The notes under the pieces: model-generated
The model's database searches: none
Seen by the model: only the letters and a program-made list of their open reading frames with translations
Told to the model about the DNA's origin: nothing
Shown: piece after piece, positions 37,437 through 43,708 of the stretch
How positions within the stretch are numbered: position 1 is the first letter of the stretch
Layout: each line of letters starts with the position of its first letter
Translations under genes and position numbers: made by a program
NCBI GenBank assembly: GCA_017455065.1
Contig: JAFTBU010000018.1
Location: 1-43,971, forward strand
DNA from: Bacteroidales bacterium
Lineage (GTDB): Bacteria; Bacteroidota; Bacteroidia; Bacteroidales; UBA932
Direction of reading: 5' to 3'
DNA: 43,971 nucleotides

Positions 37437-38624
37437 ATGAGAAAATCATTATTTGTAATCGCTTCTCTGTTCGTGCTTGGTACAACCGCCATGGCACAGG
37501 AGACCTTTTACCCTGACTGGTATTTCCAGGTAAAAGGCGGCGCCACCTACACCGCAGGTGAGTCCACATTCAAGAACCTGATCTCCTACCCCACTATAGC
37601 ACTGGGCGCAGGTTATCAGTTCACCCCCGCTTTCTCCCTCCGTGGAGAGCTCTCCGGCTGGCAGGCCAAGGGTGCGCTTCCCGCAATTGACAAGATTTAC
37701 AATTTCAAGTATGCCCAGCTCAACGCTGACGCCGTGCTCGACATCTGCAACATCTTCAATTACAAGTCCACCCGTTTCCTGAATCCCTATATCTTCGCAG
37801 GTATAGGTGGAAACCTTGCATTCGACAATGCCGACGCTCAGTCCGTGGCAGCATCATTCCCTCTTGAGAACAAGCTTTGGGACGGTATGCTTCCTTCATT
37901 CACCGGACGCTTCGGTGCAGGTTTCGACATCCGTCTCGGAGAGGCTGTAGCCCTCCAGCTCGAGGTCGTCGACAACGTGCTCACCGACAAGTTCAACTCC
38001 AAGAAGGGTGACGCCATGCATCTTGGCAACCTCGCTCTTGATTTCGACTACAACCTCAGCGCCCTCCTCGGCCTCAAGTTCACCTTCGGTCAGGCCAAGA
38101 AGAAAGCAGAGGCAGCAGCAGCTCTCGCAGCAGCTGAGGCAGCAGCCGCAGCTAAGGCAGCAGCTGACGCAGCCGCAGCAGCAAAGGCAGCAGCTGATAA
38201 GGAAGCAGCCGAAAGGGCAGCCCGTGAGGCAGCAGCCCGCGAGGCAGCTGAAAGGGCAGCCCGTGAGGCCGCAGAGCGTGAGGCAGCAGCCCGCGCAGCA
38301 GCTCGCGCAGCTGAGGAGCACGTGCTCTTCATCATCGGCAGGACCAACATCCGTGCAAGCGAGACTCCGAAGATCGATCACATCATCGACATCATGAACA
38401 AGTATCCTGAGGCAGTCTGCACCATCACCGGATACGCCGACAAGAACACCGGTACCGCCAAGGGCAACCTCTCACTCTCCAAGAGACGTGCTGAGGTCGT
38501 GACCGAGGCTCTCATCAAGGCTGGTATCTCCGCTGACCGCATCACCACCAAGTGGGTCGGTGACACCGAGGCAGTTTCTCCTATCCCTGCTGAGAACCGT
38601 GTCGCAGTCCTCGTGACCAAGTAA
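37437..38624 (+). CDS. OmpA family outer-membrane protein with Ala-rich linker
   Basis: A 395-aa outer-membrane protein. Signal peptide to about residue 20 (MRKSLFVIASLFVLGTTAMA), an eight-stranded-type beta barrel (about 25-218), an Ala/Glu/Arg/Lys-rich helical linker (220-294), and a C-terminal OmpA domain (about 296-394) that binds peptidoglycan, with ITGYADKNTGT and NLSLSKRRAEVV. The final ENRVAVLV replaces the usual NRRVE. It ties the outer membrane to the cell wall. Codon bias, its own promoter and a strong terminator suggest an abundant protein. Confidence 0.93.
   Translation: MRKSLFVIASLFVLGTTAMAQETFYPDWYFQVKGGATYTAGESTFKNLISYPTIALGAGYQFTPAFSLRGELSGWQAKGALPAIDKIYNFKYAQLNADAVLDICNIFNYKSTRFLNPYIFAGIGGNLAFDNADAQSVAASFPLENKLWDGMLPSFTGRFGAGFDIRLGEAVALQLEVVDNVLTDKFNSKKGDAMHLGNLALDFDYNLSALLGLKFTFGQAKKKAEAAAALAAAEAAAAAKAAADAAAAAKAAADKEAAERAAREAAAREAAERAAREAAEREAAARAAARAAEEHVLFIIGRTNIRASETPKIDHIIDIMNKYPEAVCTITGYADKNTGTAKGNLSLSKRRAEVVTEALIKAGISADRITTKWVGDTEAVSPIPAENRVAVLVTK
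38097..38318 (+). repeat. low-complexity tract encoding the OmpA linker
   Basis: About 220 nt of near-repeats built from GCAGC, GCTGA and GGCAGCC units encode A, E, R, K and D in short runs such as AAREAAER. Such tracts can gain or lose units by slippage, so linker length may vary between strains. Confidence 0.7.
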
Positions 38625-38646
38625 TCAGGCGACAGCTTGTAAAACA

Positions 38647-38676
38647 AGTGGCCGGCTCAAAAAGCCGGCCACTTTT
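38647..38676 (+). terminator. intrinsic terminator after ompA
   Basis: An 11-bp perfect stem (38647-38657 with 38663-38673), loop CAAAA, then TTTTATT. It lies 22 nt after the ompA stop codon and may also serve the convergent operon ending at 38711. Confidence 0.92.
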
Positions 38677-38710: not shown

Positions 38711-39571
38711 TCACTGTTTTTTGTACTTATTCAACAGCTGTTCCAGAGCAGAAGCACCCTGGTCAATCTTTTCGCGCATGTTCTCGCGGGAACCATCATT
38801 ATTTTTGCCATCCAGTTGCTGGTAACGGGCTTTCATCTGTTCCTCAAACTTCTTGTAGGCGTCCAGGCCGGAAGACATGTCCTGAACTACCATCTTATAG
38901 TCCGCAGGTAGTTCGAACACCTCAGGATATGGCACTCCCAGATGTATGTTCCTCATATAGGTTACAATGCCGTCGGCATCTTCGCAAAGAGTAATCCCGG
39001 TCTCCGGGTCGATATAACTGGTACGGTAATGCTCTTCGGTATTGGCGCCATACGGGCCTTCGAAAAGTTCAGTCGTCACAACCGTTTTCATATAACACCA
39101 GCGATCGCAAGCATAGGACATTTCCTCTTCTGTCATCTGCTCAGACTTAGACTTGACATCAACATTGCCGAGGGCCTGCATTCCATCGCCCGGAATCTTG
39201 GTGATGGTGCGTGAAGCATCGTCGATCCTGTATATGGCGAGACTGTCAGGAATCGAGAGAGTCTTGATGATCTGATTCTCCCCCGTCGCCGGATTGATGC
39301 CGGACGAGACGCTGAACTGGCGTTTGCTGGCAGCGTCGTAGAAAACCTTCGCAGGGGTGCCGTGATTCCCGATGCGATAAGCACAGAAGGACACCTGCGG
39401 CCGGGGTTTCTGCATGCCCGGCTGTTCGCCCTCCTCATGGGCAGGAAGGCCCAACGGCACATCCAGAGCCACATTTGGGACGTCATTGTAGGTATATGGA
39501 TTTGGGACTTGCGCCATAGCGGCCACGCCGATGGTCAGTAGCACCGACGTAATGTAAAGAGTCTTTTTCAT
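38711..39571 (-). CDS. exported protein of unknown function, end of LuxR-linked operon
   Basis: A 286-aa protein with a signal peptide ending AAMAQ (about residue 21). Pro-rich start of the mature part (VPNPYTYNDVPN), a beta-rich middle with YIDPETGITLCED and FELPADYKMVVQD, and a helical charged C-terminus (EEQMKARYQQ to KYKKQ). The middle resembles the gene just upstream (a Cys, then a Tyr-Ile/Val-Asp strand and turn), and recalls LolA/DUF4412-type beta folds, but this is only a pattern resemblance. Last of five genes; 12 nt after the preceding lipoprotein gene. Confidence 0.75.
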   Translation of the reverse strand: MKKTLYITSVLLTIGVAAMAQVPNPYTYNDVPNVALDVPLGLPAHEEGEQPGMQKPRPQVSFCAYRIGNHGTPAKVFYDAASKRQFSVSSGINPATGENQIIKTLSIPDSLAIYRIDDASRTITKIPGDGMQALGNVDVKSKSEQMTEEEMSYACDRWCYMKTVVTTELFEGPYGANTEEHYRTSYIDPETGITLCEDADGIVTYMRNIHLGVPYPEVFELPADYKMVVQDMSSGLDAYKKFEEQMKARYQQLDGKNNDGSRENMREKIDQGASALEQLLNKYKKQ

Positions 39572-39583
39572 TTTATTGAATGA

Positions 39584-40321
39584 TTAAGGGTTATCCGTGA
39601 ATGAAGTCACAAGGAAATGTGACTTGTCCTTATAGTTCACGCCCAGATTGCTTGAGGCGCTGCTCTTTTTCTCGTAGATGAAGCCATATTCCTTGTCAAC
39701 GTAATAGACGTCCTCTTTGCGGGTGCTGTACCCCAGAAGGGCCTCCTCCGTGACCTTGGAGACCACCCAGCAAGGACGGCCGCATCGGGTATCGCTCTTG
39801 CTTGTGGCTGCCGGCGCAGGATAATTACCGATGACTCGCAGATTGGTCTTGCTACTGTTCAGGTAGAGCTTGATGACGTCTTCGGGCGTCCTTTCCATGG
39901 TATAGGTACGGATATACTGGCCGTTATGGTACACTTTACCCTGTATGGTACCGTTGTCCAGAATATCCATATCTTCCTTCTGGGTCTTGCCGCCACCCTT
40001 GCCCTCGATGGTCATCTTTTTACCCTTACGGGTGTACGTGTAGGTAACTTTTTCATCCAGATCAACAACGGTGATGGAATAATCCTTCTCATACCATTTG
40101 AGCTCGCGGGCAGGTTCTTCCTCTGAAATCTCTTCCTCAACGGGTTCCTCGCTTACGGACTTGGCGTCCGTTGTCTGCATCGATTCAGCGATTGAGCCGA
40201 GGATCTCTTTTAGCAGTTCCTCGGCCTGTGGCTCAATGGAGTTTTCCCCCTGACGGTTTCCGGTGAAACCGCAGGAGGAAAGCATCAGTAAGCCAGCTGC
40301 AAATAAAAGCAGGCGTTTCAT
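39584..40321 (-). CDS. lipoprotein of unknown function
   Basis: A 245-aa lipoprotein: MKRLLLFAAGLLMLSSC puts the lipidated Cys at residue 17. An acidic stretch rich in Glu (about 55-72, PVEEEISEEEPA) is followed by a beta-rich domain with two Cys (TRCGRPCWVV) and a DVYYVDKEYGFIYEKK strand pair similar to that of the next gene product. No known function. It lies 5 nt after the FISUMP-type gene and 12 nt before the last gene of the operon. Confidence 0.75.
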   Translation of the reverse strand: MKRLLLFAAGLLMLSSCGFTGNRQGENSIEPQAEELLKEILGSIAESMQTTDAKSVSEEPVEEEISEEEPARELKWYEKDYSITVVDLDEKVTYTYTRKGKKMTIEGKGGGKTQKEDMDILDNGTIQGKVYHNGQYIRTYTMERTPEDVIKLYLNSSKTNLRVIGNYPAPAATSKSDTRCGRPCWVVSKVTEEALLGYSTRKEDVYYVDKEYGFIYEKKSSASSNLGVNYKDKSHFLVTSFTDNP

Positions 40322-40326
40322 TGCCG

Positions 40327-41046
40327 TCAGTCTTTGACCGGACGGATTGGAAGTCCGTTTTCACGGTAAACGGCATAGCAGTCCGTGTGGCCGAAACGCA
40401 TGGCATCTGCCCTCCTGCGGTCATGCCATTCCAGAGCGTCCTCACTGCCAACCGGAGTACCAACCTGAAGGGCCATGGACGCGGTCCAAAGCCAGGTATA
40501 GCGCTCTTCCTGCTGTTCTGTCCCATAGTAATACCCTGTTGCCTTCGGGAAGTCGATGCTATTGCCGTTGGGACCGGTTACGGTGATTAAGCCAGGTTTG
40601 TCATAGCTGAATTTGCACTTTGTAAAGAGTTCCATGGCCTCTGCACGGGTGGGCATACGCCAGCCTTTTCCCAGGGCAGCAGTGGCTGCATCATCTCCGG
40701 GCTCAAGGACAATCAATTTGTCAGCTGCGCCGCTGCTGGTTTCGCTATCTTCTACGGTGTACTTCTTGAACTTGGTTCCATCCTTGAATATATAGGTGGC
40801 ACCATTGAAATCTTTCTTCGATTTGGTCTCACCCCAGGCGTAATAATTGCCCGGATCGGACGCATCCTTCGCGCCCAGGTTGGCCTTTGCCCATTTGACG
40901 CTCAAGCCCAGATCAACTGCGTCGGATGTAGCTACGGAAGTCTTGATATCGGCGGGCTTGCCATTGCCTTTTGCATTGGAGCTGCCGCCACAGGATACTA
41001 TTGCAAGGGCGGTTGCGCACATTAGGATGATCGATAACTTTTTCAT
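40327..41046 (-). CDS. lipoprotein with FISUMP-type (Fib_succ_major-like) domain
   Basis: A 239-aa lipoprotein with Cys19 in the lipobox AIVSC. After a low-complexity segment (GGSSNAKGNGKPAD) comes a domain with the pattern VDLGLSVKWAKANLGA, YYAWGETKSK, GKGWRMPTRAEAMEL, WLWTAS and GLPIRPVKD. This order is that of the Fibrobacter succinogenes major-domain proteins common on Bacteroidota surfaces; their role is unknown, though the fold is lectin-like. ATG 41046 is chosen as it starts the lipoprotein signal. Third gene of the operon, 10 nt after the OmpA-domain gene. Confidence 0.82.
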   Translation of the reverse strand: MKKLSIILMCATALAIVSCGGSSNAKGNGKPADIKTSVATSDAVDLGLSVKWAKANLGAKDASDPGNYYAWGETKSKKDFNGATYIFKDGTKFKKYTVEDSETSSGAADKLIVLEPGDDAATAALGKGWRMPTRAEAMELFTKCKFSYDKPGLITVTGPNGNSIDFPKATGYYYGTEQQEERYTWLWTASMALQVGTPVGSEDALEWHDRRRADAMRFGHTDCYAVYRENGLPIRPVKD

Positions 41047-41056
41047 GATGTCAGTA

Positions 41057-42085
41057 TTATTTTTTGATGAATTCAACTCTGCGGTTCTTTGCACGACCTT
41101 CATCGGAACTGTTGTCTGCAATCGGCTCATGTGAGCCCTTGCCCACGGCAGTCAAACGGTCTTTGGATAATCCCATTTCCACCAGGCGGGCAACGATGGC
41201 CTCGGCGCGCTTCTGACTCAGAGGGTCATTCACGGCATCGGTGCCTGTATTGTCGCAGTGGCCCTGGACCTCAAACTTAAGGGAGGCATCCTTGGCCATC
41301 AGTTCCTTGATGCGGTTAATCTCCACGTCGGCCTCTGGCTTAAGCGTAGCCTTGCCGGTATCGAAAGTGATGGCATAGGTAACAATCTTTCCGTCGCTGG
41401 ACAGGCGGTCATAGAGAGGCACTGCACCTTTGGCGATGCGGATATTGGTAACACCCATAACCGGCTCGAATATAGATGCAAGCGTAAACCAGCCGGGAAC
41501 AACCGACACATTCGGCAGATTGATGACGCGTTCACCGTCAAGATATAGTTTGAGTGCTCTCTTGTTGAAGGAAAGAGCCAGGTGGTGCCATTGTCCTGAA
41601 GTAAGGACAACACCGGGCTTTTCGCCATCTTTATCTCCTGACGATGTCTTCCACCACCAGAGGAAACCATAACTCTCCTTATCATTCAACACAGGCATTT
41701 CCACTACGAAGACCGGTTCATCGTCGATGTCTGCGGGCAGAAAAGCCCACCTTAAGGTTCCTTCTTCTTCTCCTGTATAAAACATGTCAAATTCAACAGT
41801 GAAGACATCACCAAGGAAGTTGTGCGGATTCTTCATCAATGGAGAAATGCAGTCGCCGTCATGCTGGAGTGCAATACATCTTCTGCCATTAATTTCCATC
41901 ACCTGGGCTTCACCTCCAATCAGTTCCCACATAGAGGGGAATTCTCCCATCTGCTCGCCTTCCAATGAGTCATCGAAAATTATTTCATCACCCGGGACAA
42001 AGTCGTTTTTGACATAGGCAGTCTGCGCCTGTGCCCACATGCACATAAGCGTAACAGAAAGAATGAGCAATAACAGTTTTTTCAT
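41057..42085 (-). CDS. exported protein with LamG/concanavalin-like and OmpA domains
   Basis: A 342-aa envelope protein. Signal peptide to about residue 21 (ending WAQAQ), then a jelly-roll domain (about 35-220) with the laminin-G/concanavalin pattern GQWHHLALSFNKRALKLYLDGE, and a C-terminal OmpA domain (239-342) with GHCDNTGTD, NDPLSQKRAEAIV and KNRRVEF; the Asp and Arg that hold diaminopimelate are kept. It would anchor a sugar- or protein-binding module to peptidoglycan. It follows the small LuxR gene by 21 nt. Confidence 0.85.
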   Translation of the reverse strand: MKKLLLLILSVTLMCMWAQAQTAYVKNDFVPGDEIIFDDSLEGEQMGEFPSMWELIGGEAQVMEINGRRCIALQHDGDCISPLMKNPHNFLGDVFTVEFDMFYTGEEEGTLRWAFLPADIDDEPVFVVEMPVLNDKESYGFLWWWKTSSGDKDGEKPGVVLTSGQWHHLALSFNKRALKLYLDGERVINLPNVSVVPGWFTLASIFEPVMGVTNIRIAKGAVPLYDRLSSDGKIVTYAITFDTGKATLKPEADVEINRIKELMAKDASLKFEVQGHCDNTGTDAVNDPLSQKRAEAIVARLVEMGLSKDRLTAVGKGSHEPIADNSSDEGRAKNRRVEFIKK

Positions 42086-42106
42086 CGTGGTTAAAAATTA
42101 TGATGG

Positions 42107-42322
42107 TTACAAGATTTTCTGTGCGACCGCTTTCATCAACATCTCTCCCGTGGTAGCCGCATTGAATTTGGACTTGAGTCTTTGCCGATACCATTTGATA
42201 GCCGACAGGCTGAGATGCAGACCTTCTGCTATCTCAGTACTTTTCTTTCCTGCCGCCAGCATCTTCAAAACCTTTTCCTCCGTGGCGGTCAGAATGATCT
42301 CGTCATTGAATAAATCTTCCAT
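42107..42322 (-). CDS. 71-aa LuxR-type HTH protein (DNA-binding domain only)
   Basis: The protein is just a LuxR/GerE-type helix-turn-helix: LTATEEKVLKMLAAG, STEIAEGLHLSLSAIKWYRQRL and KFNAATTGEML. No receiver or sensing domain. By hand alignment 29 of 61 residues match the HTH of the divergent membrane protein, including IKW-RQRL and EML-KA. It leads the five-gene operon. It could be an autoregulator, a co-activator or, as a free HTH, a competitor of the membrane protein; none is shown. The start follows an inverted repeat at 42325-42367. Confidence 0.85.
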   Translation of the reverse strand: MEDLFNDEIILTATEEKVLKMLAAGKKSTEIAEGLHLSLSAIKWYRQRLKSKFNAATTGEMLMKAVAQKIL

Positions 42323-42324
42323 TC

Positions 42325-42367
42325 GCTTGGGACTAGTTTACAATTACAAAGTTCGTCAATCCCAAGC
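42325..42367. promoter_or_regulatory. 8-bp inverted repeat before the small LuxR gene
   Basis: GCTTGGGA (42325-42332) and TCCCAAGC (42360-42367) are perfect inverted copies 27 nt apart, in the leader of the small LuxR gene. It may be an operator or an mRNA stem near the start codon. Confidence 0.45.
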
Positions 42368-42376
42368 ACTTAAGAA

Positions 42377-42392
42377 TTATACAAAAGTATAA
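42377..42392 (-). promoter_or_regulatory. -7 element of the five-gene operon inside a 16-nt palindrome
   Basis: TACTTTTG on the minus strand (42382-42389) fits the -7 consensus. It is embedded in the perfect palindrome TTATAC-AAAA-GTATAA, which could be the site of a dimeric regulator. No -33 box is visible, as expected for a promoter that needs an activator. Confidence 0.5.
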
Positions 42393-42451
42393 AAAAACGT
42401 CACGGTTGTCAGTTTTTCACCCCGGGAGTCATTGAATCATTACGGTTTTGC

Positions 42452-42459
42452 TAACTTTG
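42452..42459 (+). promoter_or_regulatory. -7 element of the TPR-LuxR gene
   Basis: TAACTTTG, with TTG at 42432-42434 (spacer 17, short). Only 7 nt remain to the ATG at 42467, so the transcript is probably leaderless. Confidence 0.55.
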
Positions 42460-42466
42460 TTTTGCC

Positions 42467-43708
42467 ATGAAGCAACTTTTTTTCACGCTTATTATCATAA
42501 CTACCTTTGCCGGCTCAGCCAGCGCACAATACAATGATCATCGTGACCGGAAACTCGATTCACTTGAAAATGTGGTTGCCGGATGGACGCCCGCTCGACT
42601 GGCCCTGGCCCCGTATGAAACTCAAACCGATGTGTGCCTGGCTTTCTCCCAGCTGATGTACGGATACGAGCGCATCAACCCTGACCGCTCGATGTATGCG
42701 GCAAGAAGGGCATATGAACTAGGCAATGAGCTCAAGTCCCTTTACCAGCCTTATCTGGCTGCCAAGTTCATCGGACAGTTGTTCTACAACAAAGAACAGT
42801 ACGACAGTACTATCATCTATTATCGGATAGCACTGGGTTATCTGGACCGCATGTCTGCAGGAGAGGCAGGTCCGGACACGCCGGAAGGGTACCCTCAAGA
42901 AAAGATAGACGATGCTGCTTCCAGCCTGTATGGCAATATAGGTAACCTCTATTATGAGATAGATTCTCTCCCCCAGGCCATGGCCTACTATGCCAAGGCA
43001 GGTGATATATTCAAGAAATACGGTTGGAAAATCAGCAGCTCCATCCTGGAGCACAACATGGGCGACATCTGGGCTGACGAAGGCGAGGATGCCAAAGCAA
43101 TAGAGTATTACAATAGCGCCATAAGTTATGCCAAGGAAGCCGGAGACTCTCTCTGGGTAGCTTCCCCAAAACTGGGTCTTGGTGCCTTGTATATGCGTCG
43201 GGGCAAAGTGACGAAAGCCCTTCAATACCTCCAGGAAGCCGATGAATACTACTCCAAGCATCAAGACCAAGAGTATTACGACCGCATCGCCACCCTCGAC
43301 ATTATGGGCCAGGCATACCGGGCACAAAAACAGCAGCGGACTTTGCTGGCCGCCGCTTTCGCCGTGCTTGCCCTGACCTTGCTGATGCTCCTGGGCCTAT
43401 CCCGCAGGGCGCTGCGGCTGAAGAAAGAGAACGCTGCTGCGGACGAAGCCATCGGCGAGGCTTTGACAGAGCTGGAGATGAATAACTCCCACTCCGGACA
43501 GGAAAGAAGCCGGATGGTTGAATTGAGCCGTGGTGAACAGGAAATCCTTCCGATGATCGCCGAAGGCCTCACCAGCAAGGAAATCGCCAATCGTCTGTTC
43601 CTCACTGAGCAGACCATAAAATGGCGCCGCCAAAGGCTCATTGCCAAATTCGATGCCAAAAATACCGCCGAGATGCTCTCCAAGGCCCGCGAGTGTGGGC
43701 TGCTGTAG
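42467..43708 (+). CDS. membrane-spanning TPR protein with cytosolic LuxR-type HTH
   Basis: A 413-aa one-component regulator. Signal peptide to about residue 20, then a periplasmic helical-repeat region of TPR type (about 50-285; clearest units SSLYGNIGNLYYEIDSLPQA, AKAIEYYNSAISYAKEAGD and LGALYMRRGKVTKALQYLQE). One membrane helix at 292-312 is followed by a short coiled coil (315-340) and a GerE-type HTH (353-410). It could pass an envelope signal straight to DNA. It is divergent from the exported-protein operon led by a related HTH. Known Bacteroidota proteins share this layout, but their signals are largely unknown. Confidence 0.88.
   Translation: MKQLFFTLIIITTFAGSASAQYNDHRDRKLDSLENVVAGWTPARLALAPYETQTDVCLAFSQLMYGYERINPDRSMYAARRAYELGNELKSLYQPYLAAKFIGQLFYNKEQYDSTIIYYRIALGYLDRMSAGEAGPDTPEGYPQEKIDDAASSLYGNIGNLYYEIDSLPQAMAYYAKAGDIFKKYGWKISSSILEHNMGDIWADEGEDAKAIEYYNSAISYAKEAGDSLWVASPKLGLGALYMRRGKVTKALQYLQEADEYYSKHQDQEYYDRIATLDIMGQAYRAQKQQRTLLAAAFAVLALTLLMLLGLSRRALRLKKENAAADEAIGEALTELEMNNSHSGQERSRMVELSRGEQEILPMIAEGLTSKEIANRLFLTEQTIKWRRQRLIAKFDAKNTAEMLSKARECGLL

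Follow-up and report, generated by a model that had tools for sequence, protein, structure and literature searches.

Why does a gene for a membrane-anchored LuxR-type regulator lie back to back with one for a bare LuxR-type DNA-binding domain that heads an operon of exported proteins, and do both products address the same DNA? This question is raised by a locus of a Bacteroidales bacterium (UBA932; assembly GCA_017455065.1). The window, i.e. the whole stretch of 43,971 nucleotides (nt) that was analysed, is the entire contig C3 (JAFTBU010000018.1) of a genome of 2.1 Mb in 64 contigs. The larger protein, composed of tetratricopeptide repeats (TPR), a membrane helix and a LuxR-type helix-turn-helix (HTH), is called BIG here and the small HTH-only protein mini. 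The original prediction assigned both to an envelope-sensing circuit in which they read the same sites, the short one perhaps as antagonist or amplifier. Sequence comparisons revealed a putative operator between the two genes and support well a common DNA specificity of BIG and mini. It is rather probable that BIG activates the divergent operon through this palindrome, centred near -41.5, and that the operon-encoded mini serves as a feed-forward co-activator. The elements concerned are, with lengths in amino acids (aa) and base pairs (bp):

42377..42392, no strand assigned: operator palindrome TTATACAAAAGTATAA, 16 bp, centred near -41.5 of the operon (putative start), the only exact copy in the genome
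42347..42354, minus strand: -7-like box of the operon GAACTTTG, 22 nt from the operator
42452..42459, plus strand: -7-like box of BIG TAACTTTG, 7 nt before the BIG ATG, assigned by sequence
42467..43708, plus strand: BIG, 413 aa, with signal peptide, periplasmic TPR repeats, one transmembrane segment (by hydropathy) and a C-terminal GerE/LuxR-type HTH (Pfam GerE and TPR_12 above cut-off)
42107..42322, minus strand: mini, 71 aa, HTH-only LuxR-type protein (SLSAIKWYRQRL), Pfam GerE 44.9 bits

The divergent gene is as originally described, an open reading frame separated from mini by 144 nt. Both HTHs belong to the LuxR/GerE superfamily, since their Pfam GerE scores of 44.9 (mini) and 45.2 bits (BIG, residues 353-404) lie above the cut-off of 23.5 bits. 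The TPR_12 match of BIG reaches 37.2 bits (cut-off 30.1), and hydropathy places its single transmembrane segment near residue 290, followed by an Arg/Lys-rich stretch, an arrangement in which the C-terminus would be cytosolic. The earlier count of 29 identical residues among 61 HTH positions was reproduced by eye on the aligned columns, while BLASTP aligned the two domains with 28 of 55 residues identical. The recognition helix of BIG in the window reads EQTIKWRRQRL.

A regulatory site had been expected within the interval 42323-42466, which is where the palindrome was found. In related loci from the genus, whose sampling is described below, a single covering pattern detected a palindrome in 65 of 72 divergent BIG intergenic regions of at least 60 bp. 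Altogether, these 72 regions contained 90 sites, compared to a mean of 0.90 (standard deviation 0.73, maximum 2) in 50 dinucleotide shuffles. The pattern was composed after inspection of the 72 sequences, to which a held-out set gives a partial answer. The BIG loci of the later batches were cleared of 40 with more than 90% identity to the initial set, of 14 near-copies and of two regions under 60 bp, and the fixed pattern identified an operator in 29 of the 30 loci left, the exception being L180. By sequence, both sets thus reveal an inverted repeat of about 16 bp, as expected for LuxR/GerE proteins.

The operator also occupies a fixed place. Its edge lies 22 nt from the -7-like box of the operon in 46 of the 49 loci possessing such a box (23 nt in two loci, 44 nt in one; 16 loci are boxless), and the same gap was measured in all 22 held-out loci with a box, seven others being boxless. 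If the box is placed at -11 to -4, which is an assumption, the operator is centred near -41.5 and the operon of the window would start near 42343, with a leader of about 21 nt. At this distance the operator would overlap the -33/-35 region of the putative promoter, as class II activators do, and its centre would thus be at an activator position. PMC7366714 and PMC12632263 give TAnnTTTG as the Bacteroides -7 consensus, and PMC7366714 a similar leader of 23 nt for most mRNAs of B. thetaiotaomicron. While the box of BIG itself, detected near the ATG in 45 of 65 relatives as TAnnTTTG or TAnnTTCG, is mostly TAnnTTTG, the operon box reads GAnnTTTG in 44 of 46 loci (the search admitted no bases other than G and T in the first position). 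Hence, the operon promoter may be weak and want an activator, and activation by BIG is likely. The overlap with the -33 region would equally suit a repressor that blocks RNA polymerase until an envelope signal releases it. Such a role of BIG is improbable, however, in view of the off-consensus operon box in these 44 of 46 loci and of a second, in-phase site further upstream in many loci, an arrangement that seems more typical of activators.

Some further features of the intergenic region deserve mention. The box of BIG ends 7 nt before the ATG in the window (42452-42466) and 4 or 5 nt before it in 42 of 65 relatives, and the BIG mRNA may be nearly leaderless; 5' untranslated regions under 10 nt are rare in B. 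thetaiotaomicron (about 3.7%) according to PMC7366714. An 8-nt inverted repeat, GCTTGGGA/TCCCAAGC (42325-42332/42360-42367), flanks the -7-like box of the operon, its right arm lying upstream of the putative start. By eye, it recurs in L160 and L162 and partly in L064, not in L037, L084 and L173. A sigma-70 scan returned 8 sites against 5.6 expected. With up to two mismatches, the window palindrome has 4+2 sites in the genome compared to 1+1 for the reversed control, and the sole site with one mismatch (C42:32584) coincides in part with a -7-like box that precedes a lipoprotein gene. A wider regulon of this operator was considered and rejected: the exact copy occurs only once, near-sites are few, and no second target is claimed.

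The word of the operator depends on the recognition helix of the adjacent BIG. Helices with ET(I/V)(K/R)W go with CCACCC-N4-GGGTGG and those with (P/A/S)TIKW with CTATCC-N4-GGATAG or CTATAC-N4-GTATAG, whereas the word of the window's class is TTATAC-AAAA-GTATAA. Loci with both genes on the same strand and a third helix type have different palindromes in a similar position (ACCCCGTAATTACGGGGG, CACACGTTTATGTGG and others, identified by eye). The relation can be narrowed down to single residues. Glu at alignment column 40, the start of the recognition helix, was accompanied by C as fourth base of the distal half-site in 39 of 39 BIGs, and any other residue by T in 26 of 26. The minis of the same loci conform to this rule (26/26 and 16/16), as do the held-out BIGs (12/12 and 17/17). 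Gln at column 47 goes with TTATAC in eight of nine cases, the ninth (L147) having CCACCC. From our own alignment, we take columns 43 and 47 to be the equivalents of the base-contacting residues K188 and K192 of NarL. These counts represent few evolutionary events seen many times.

A second line of evidence comes from the partner proteins. The HTHs of BIG and mini from one locus are on average 50.1% identical, compared to 45.8% after re-dealing the partners (67 pairs; 0 of 5000 shuffles), and a set reduced to a single pair from each of 13 clades gives 51.1 and 47.6 (21 of 5000 shuffles). The excess was largest at columns 5, 17, 18, 27, 28, 36-40, 43, 47, 50 and 56 for the 67 pairs and at columns 5, 27, 28, 39, 40, 43, 47 and 56 for the 13 clades; the columns that covary appear to lie mostly, not only, on the DNA face. 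Covariation of DNA-contact columns and a residue-base rule obeyed by both proteins bear out the proposal that the two HTHs read the same sites, and a shared DNA specificity of BIG and mini is well supported. Within the genome under study, three BIG paralogues have three different helices and three operators: TTATACAAAAGTATAA in the window, CCACTCAAAAGGGTGG and CCACCCTAAAGGGTAG on contig C27, and CTAAACTAAAGTTTAG on C34, where the helix is EQTIKWYRMRL and mini is absent. The generic pattern finds nothing in the C34 locus (L256) because the arms there are CTAAAC. L180, the held-out exception, has the same helix as C34, the operator CTAAACGAAAGTTTAG and a mini that also carries YRMRL. For the C27 words, a genome search yielded 2+5 sites against 3+2 for the control, and only the two exact sites stand out. 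The BIG gene on C34 (C34:218416-219642; L256 8414-9643) faces genes for a 405-aa exported protein with an OmpA-LamG-like N-terminus and for two lipoproteins.

The role of mini can be approached through the second palindrome. Two pattern sites were detected in 25 loci, 19 of them with a spacing of 22 bp. In the other classes, 27 of 37 loci with mini and 1 of 18 without have a second palindrome at a distance of 19-23 bp that scores at least 14. In this count of 55 loci, L102 was assigned by hand to those with mini, which is located one gene farther along, two loci in which a second site would not fit were excluded, and the rows are related, so that Fisher values are not independent. Among held-out loci outside the window's class and L180, the second site was found in 10 of 12 with mini and 2 of 10 without. 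Both exceptions are particular: in L197 mini is the second gene, and L216 is cut by the contig end, its near-copy L221 having mini as third gene. Four held-out loci (L184, L202, L249 and L215), probably of one clade, have a mini with SLNTIKW in place of SLPTIKW. Their second site reads CCACCCTTTCGGGTAG or nearly so, with BIG and the first site unchanged from the usual form. In these sequences, the second site thus goes with mini and the first with BIG.

From these observations the following mechanism can be drawn. BIG would be a one-component, membrane-anchored LuxR-type regulator whose periplasmic TPR part senses something in the envelope, a function suggested by its topology and by the cargo of the operon. 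Its cytosolic HTH would bind the 16-bp palindrome near -41.5 of the divergent promoter and activate it from this class II-like site. The operon would then yield mostly exported proteins and, in many loci, the soluble mini of the same DNA specificity. In the window's class mini would bind this same operator, and in other classes a second palindrome some 22 bp farther upstream. As feed-forward co-activator, it would release the response from its tie to the membrane. The gene pair, the operator with its fixed place, the shared specificity and the link between second operator and mini are taken from the sequences; sensing, activation and the sign of the mini effect are what we infer. The activator-like position of the operator and the second operator that goes with mini speak for a co-activator role, and amplification is favoured over antagonism.

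Nevertheless, mini is a bare DNA-binding domain and might, as a soluble competitor, take up the operator without any activation, so that leaky BIG activity would meet negative feedback or a threshold. The two readers have a single site in the window's class, and for the window competition is as easily drawn as cooperation, which is why this role, although rather unlikely, has to be taken seriously. It would also fit loci in which mini is lost while the operator stays, as is often the case (L064 with mini, L130 and L132 without). However, competition would not require a second operator 22 bp upstream, a site that accompanies mini elsewhere, and bare LuxR-type domains such as GerE can activate.

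Several findings weigh against the co-activator reading or parts of it. A second site was found in none of eight loci of the window's class (four with and four without mini); since there is one site in either case, mini need not add anything there. Ten of the 37 loci of other classes that possess mini lack the second site. Of independent pairs on the BIG tree in other classes, 3.3 of 6 go with mini and none in the opposite direction, too few to reach significance, and the test of partner HTHs shows nothing when only three clades are used (827 of 5000 shuffles). Finally, the window palindrome contains a -7-like box on the operon strand (TACTTTTG) and might therefore double as a promoter element. 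This and the ability of some palindromes (CCACCCGAAAGGGTGG on one strand) to form short hairpins could suggest that the palindromes are promoter elements or RNA hairpins rather than operators. Such an explanation is very improbable, though, given that the palindromes lie upstream of the putative starts on both strands, have a constant distance of 22 nt from the -7-like box and vary with the recognition helix of the neighbouring regulator.

That mini of the window is coding follows from its conservation. The ratio of nonsynonymous to synonymous substitution rates (dN/dS) was 0.057 compared with L064 and 0.048 compared with L037, values that are rough due to dS of 0.98 and 3.0. Among 17 close pairs of minis, two were undefined and 13 of the remaining 15 ranged from 0.05 to 0.22, which shows purifying selection on mini. 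The outliers are L044/L051 (0.72) and L068/L095 (0.83). The minis of L044 (9653-9871) and L051 (873-1091) have an almost identical first half and diverge strongly from the recognition helix onwards. The specificity half may have been exchanged in this pair, though the upstream palindromes look alike. An origin of mini by recent local duplication of the BIG HTH is not favoured, as the HTH tree mostly splits the 52 minis from the 67 BIGs (6 changes against 38.7-38.9 after shuffling; 63 columns). In this tree, 8 of 116 inner branches are supported and force only two changes, and the 'mini' of L053 is probably a BIG cut by the contig end. On the BIG tree, the presence of mini needs 13 changes, nine of which are forced by supported branches.

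The loci compared were collected in two samples. With the 71-aa protein as query, 23 of 61 genomes of the genus gave a match at 1e-5, and the search repeatedly returned a short free HTH paired with a TPR-LuxR protein of about 400 aa, the second pair of the genome under study lying on C27. An HTH alignment of 18 rows matched 212 of 232 genus genomes at 1e-5, which includes any near LuxR domain, with best matches only listed. Twenty stretches of the first sample were fetched along with 92 of 100 drawn up around listed matches of the second; of the other eight, two were already included and six had the match at the contig start. The stretches were selected by HTH matches, and the fractions with and without mini depend on this sampling. 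Together with the window, the 112 stretches contain 74 minis and 100 BIGs, 99 of the latter with a predicted transmembrane segment. A BIG accompanies 66 of the 74 minis in the same stretch, as a divergent neighbour in 40 cases, divergent with an intervening gene in one, on the same strand in 19 and convergent in six. Four of these six (L043, L057, L088, L091) are really divergent, the home-made gene caller having placed BIG or mini starts too far upstream. The eight minis without a called BIG comprise four cut by a contig end (L042, L046, L122, L123), L100, where the caller missed BIG, L089, whose BIG has an HTH deletion, and L126 and L146, the only two truly lacking BIG in the stretch. The expectation that the two HTH genes go together was thus supported.

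In L089 (7835-8938), the first helices are missing from the HTH of BIG, but mini and the two operon genes are still present, a natural mini-only case unless it is an assembly error. The minis of L126 (7492-7698) and L146 (7495-7710) still have the family palindrome upstream and may be driven by a regulator elsewhere. Of the 77 BIGs that have a divergent operon, 37 lack an immediately adjacent mini, and 19 of these are nevertheless opposite an OmpA-LamG gene. BIG and the exported operon thus constitute the core, and mini is an addition. When present, mini is usually the first gene of the operon.

In the window, mini is followed by four genes:

41057..42085, minus strand: exported LamG and OmpA protein, 342 aa, Pfam OmpA and Laminin_G_3 above cut-off
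40327..41046, minus strand: lipoprotein, 239 aa, weakly FISUMP/Lcl_C-like, below the Pfam cut-offs
39584..40321, minus strand: lipo245, lipoprotein without known family, 245 aa, lipobox-like N-terminus, no Pfam match above cut-off
38711..39571, minus strand: sec286, secreted protein without known family, 286 aa, no family above cut-off

The coordinates agree with the proposed unit of five minus-strand genes with gaps of 21, 10, 5 and 12 nt, and inspection together with a hydropathy heuristic recovered the proposed export signals on all four products after mini (signal-peptide or lipobox-like N-termini). The 342-aa protein scored 81.1 bits for OmpA (cut-off 27.2) and 30.4 for Laminin_G_3 (27.6). 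By contrast, the label 'FISUMP-type' given to the 239-aa product, whose N-terminus is lipoprotein-like, has to be reduced to a weak resemblance (Fib_succ_major 13.2 against 33.9 bits, Lcl_C 17.6 against 34.9). For lipo245 and sec286, neither Pfam nor NCBIfam contained a family above cut-off. Downstream, the operon heads towards the gene of an outer-membrane protein with an Ala-rich linker and an OmpA domain (37437-38624), from which it is separated by a terminator-like stem of 12 pairs (38646-38674).

How far this gene set is conserved was read from the locus listings of the window's own class, i.e. 19 distinct loci with the helix QTIKWRRQRL and a visible operon side. Seven contain mini (the window, L037, L064, L084, L160, L162 and L173) and twelve do not (L076, L130, L132, L136, L161, L167, L170, L171, L172, L174, L175 and L176). 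FISUMP-like proteins occur in 12 of the 19 loci, sec286 and a further lipoprotein, c55, in ten each, lipo245 in four and OmpA-LamG in two. Even the nearest relative, L162, differs in having mini, c55, FISUMP, lipo245 and sec286. A conserved five-gene operon was therefore rejected, the set of the window being present in none of the 18 other class loci. The exact gene set of the original prediction did not hold, as the exported genes are freely swapped and mini is absent from 12 of 19 loci; of the supposed conservation of gene order in relatives, the regulator and the operator stood and the cargo genes did not. The exported nature of the cargo is more general: 124 of 144 operon genes have export-like N-termini by a heuristic, compared to 398 of 877 other genes in the stretches. 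Ten cargo proteins were scanned. Two gave BspA-type leucine-rich repeats (LRR) and WG repeats above cut-off, the LRR protein being that of L102 (7706-9553), and one, of L093 (5020-6033), has an RseB-like stretch just below cut-off (MucB_RseB 20.3 against 22.3 bits); the other seven gave nothing above cut-off. The RseB-like and LRR cargo proteins hint at envelope and surface roles.

Among named genomes, 213 relatives of BIG were identified, 80 of which were kept. All 80 are from uncultured Bacteroidales or Bacteroidia assemblies, and 37 of the 80 titles name a ruminant host and organ or animal. In a family sample, the BIG alignment matched 18 of 149 genomes and 6 of 24 genera at 1e-30, one by the HTH alone and one by the sensor alone. 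In an order sample it matched 5 of 247 genomes, the four outside the own genome by the sensor part only, in frames of 583-669 aa. The PHROGs collection gave two weak matches for BIG and none for mini.

Each part of the system is of a known kind. Profile matches were obtained to GerE-type domains of NarL/FixJ/LuxR proteins (EsrB, the NarL-DNA complex 1je8, DesR, GerE), and NarL sites are 7-2-7 inverted repeats like the 16-bp repeat described here. Unlike in these proteins, a membrane helix would link the activity of BIG to a TPR part in the periplasm; the Pfam scan of BIG and mini contained neither a receiver family, as in NarL/FixJ response regulators, nor an autoinducer-binding domain, as in quorum-sensing LuxR, and NCBIfam matches to SdiA and similar proteins covered the HTH only. 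GerE of Bacillus (1fse; profile match 6e-9) is, like mini, a bare HTH of about 70 aa, whereas mini is encoded with a membrane-anchored regulator and has its specificity in common with it. RcsB with RcsA or BglJ likewise brings two LuxR-type HTH proteins to one promoter, one of them auxiliary, but here there is no phosphorelay or receiver and the partner is only an HTH. ToxR with a ToxT-like relay also combines a membrane-anchored regulator and a soluble DNA-binding protein on genes of exported proteins. However, ToxR-like regulators have an N-terminal cytosolic winged HTH and a C-terminal periplasmic domain, while BIG carries its GerE HTH at the C-terminus (residues 353-404); the DNA-binding folds of BIG and mini are others, the domain order is opposite and both readers have one specificity. 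Finally, the TPR part of BIG weakly matches the NCBIfam model of FimS-kind TPR sensor kinases (33.1 bits, cut-off 600), yet BIG possesses an HTH where the kinase would be. The combination of a TPR-membrane-LuxR sensor, an operon-encoded matched bare HTH, a dedicated operator and paralogues with different words did not turn up in searches aimed at it within open-licence PMC text, which is weak evidence of absence.

It is conceivable, if still tentative, that these loci constitute a family of 'tethered plus free' switches, in which a membrane reader and a free reader from its own target operon share one DNA word. The free reader, with its own second operator about 22 bp upstream outside the window's class, would make a membrane-limited signal self-sustaining and cytosolic, and paralogues would be insulated by the helix-to-base code as natural orthogonal regulator-operator pairs. 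With this analysis, an apparently uncharacterised regulator family of uncultured gut Bacteroidales gains a predicted binding site, a fixed promoter geometry and a set of targets, all of which could be tested without growing the source organism. Candidate orthogonal switches can be drawn from the helix-base code and the paralogues. How auxiliary regulators originate is also open to direct test here, through the repeated gain or loss of mini along with a second operator.

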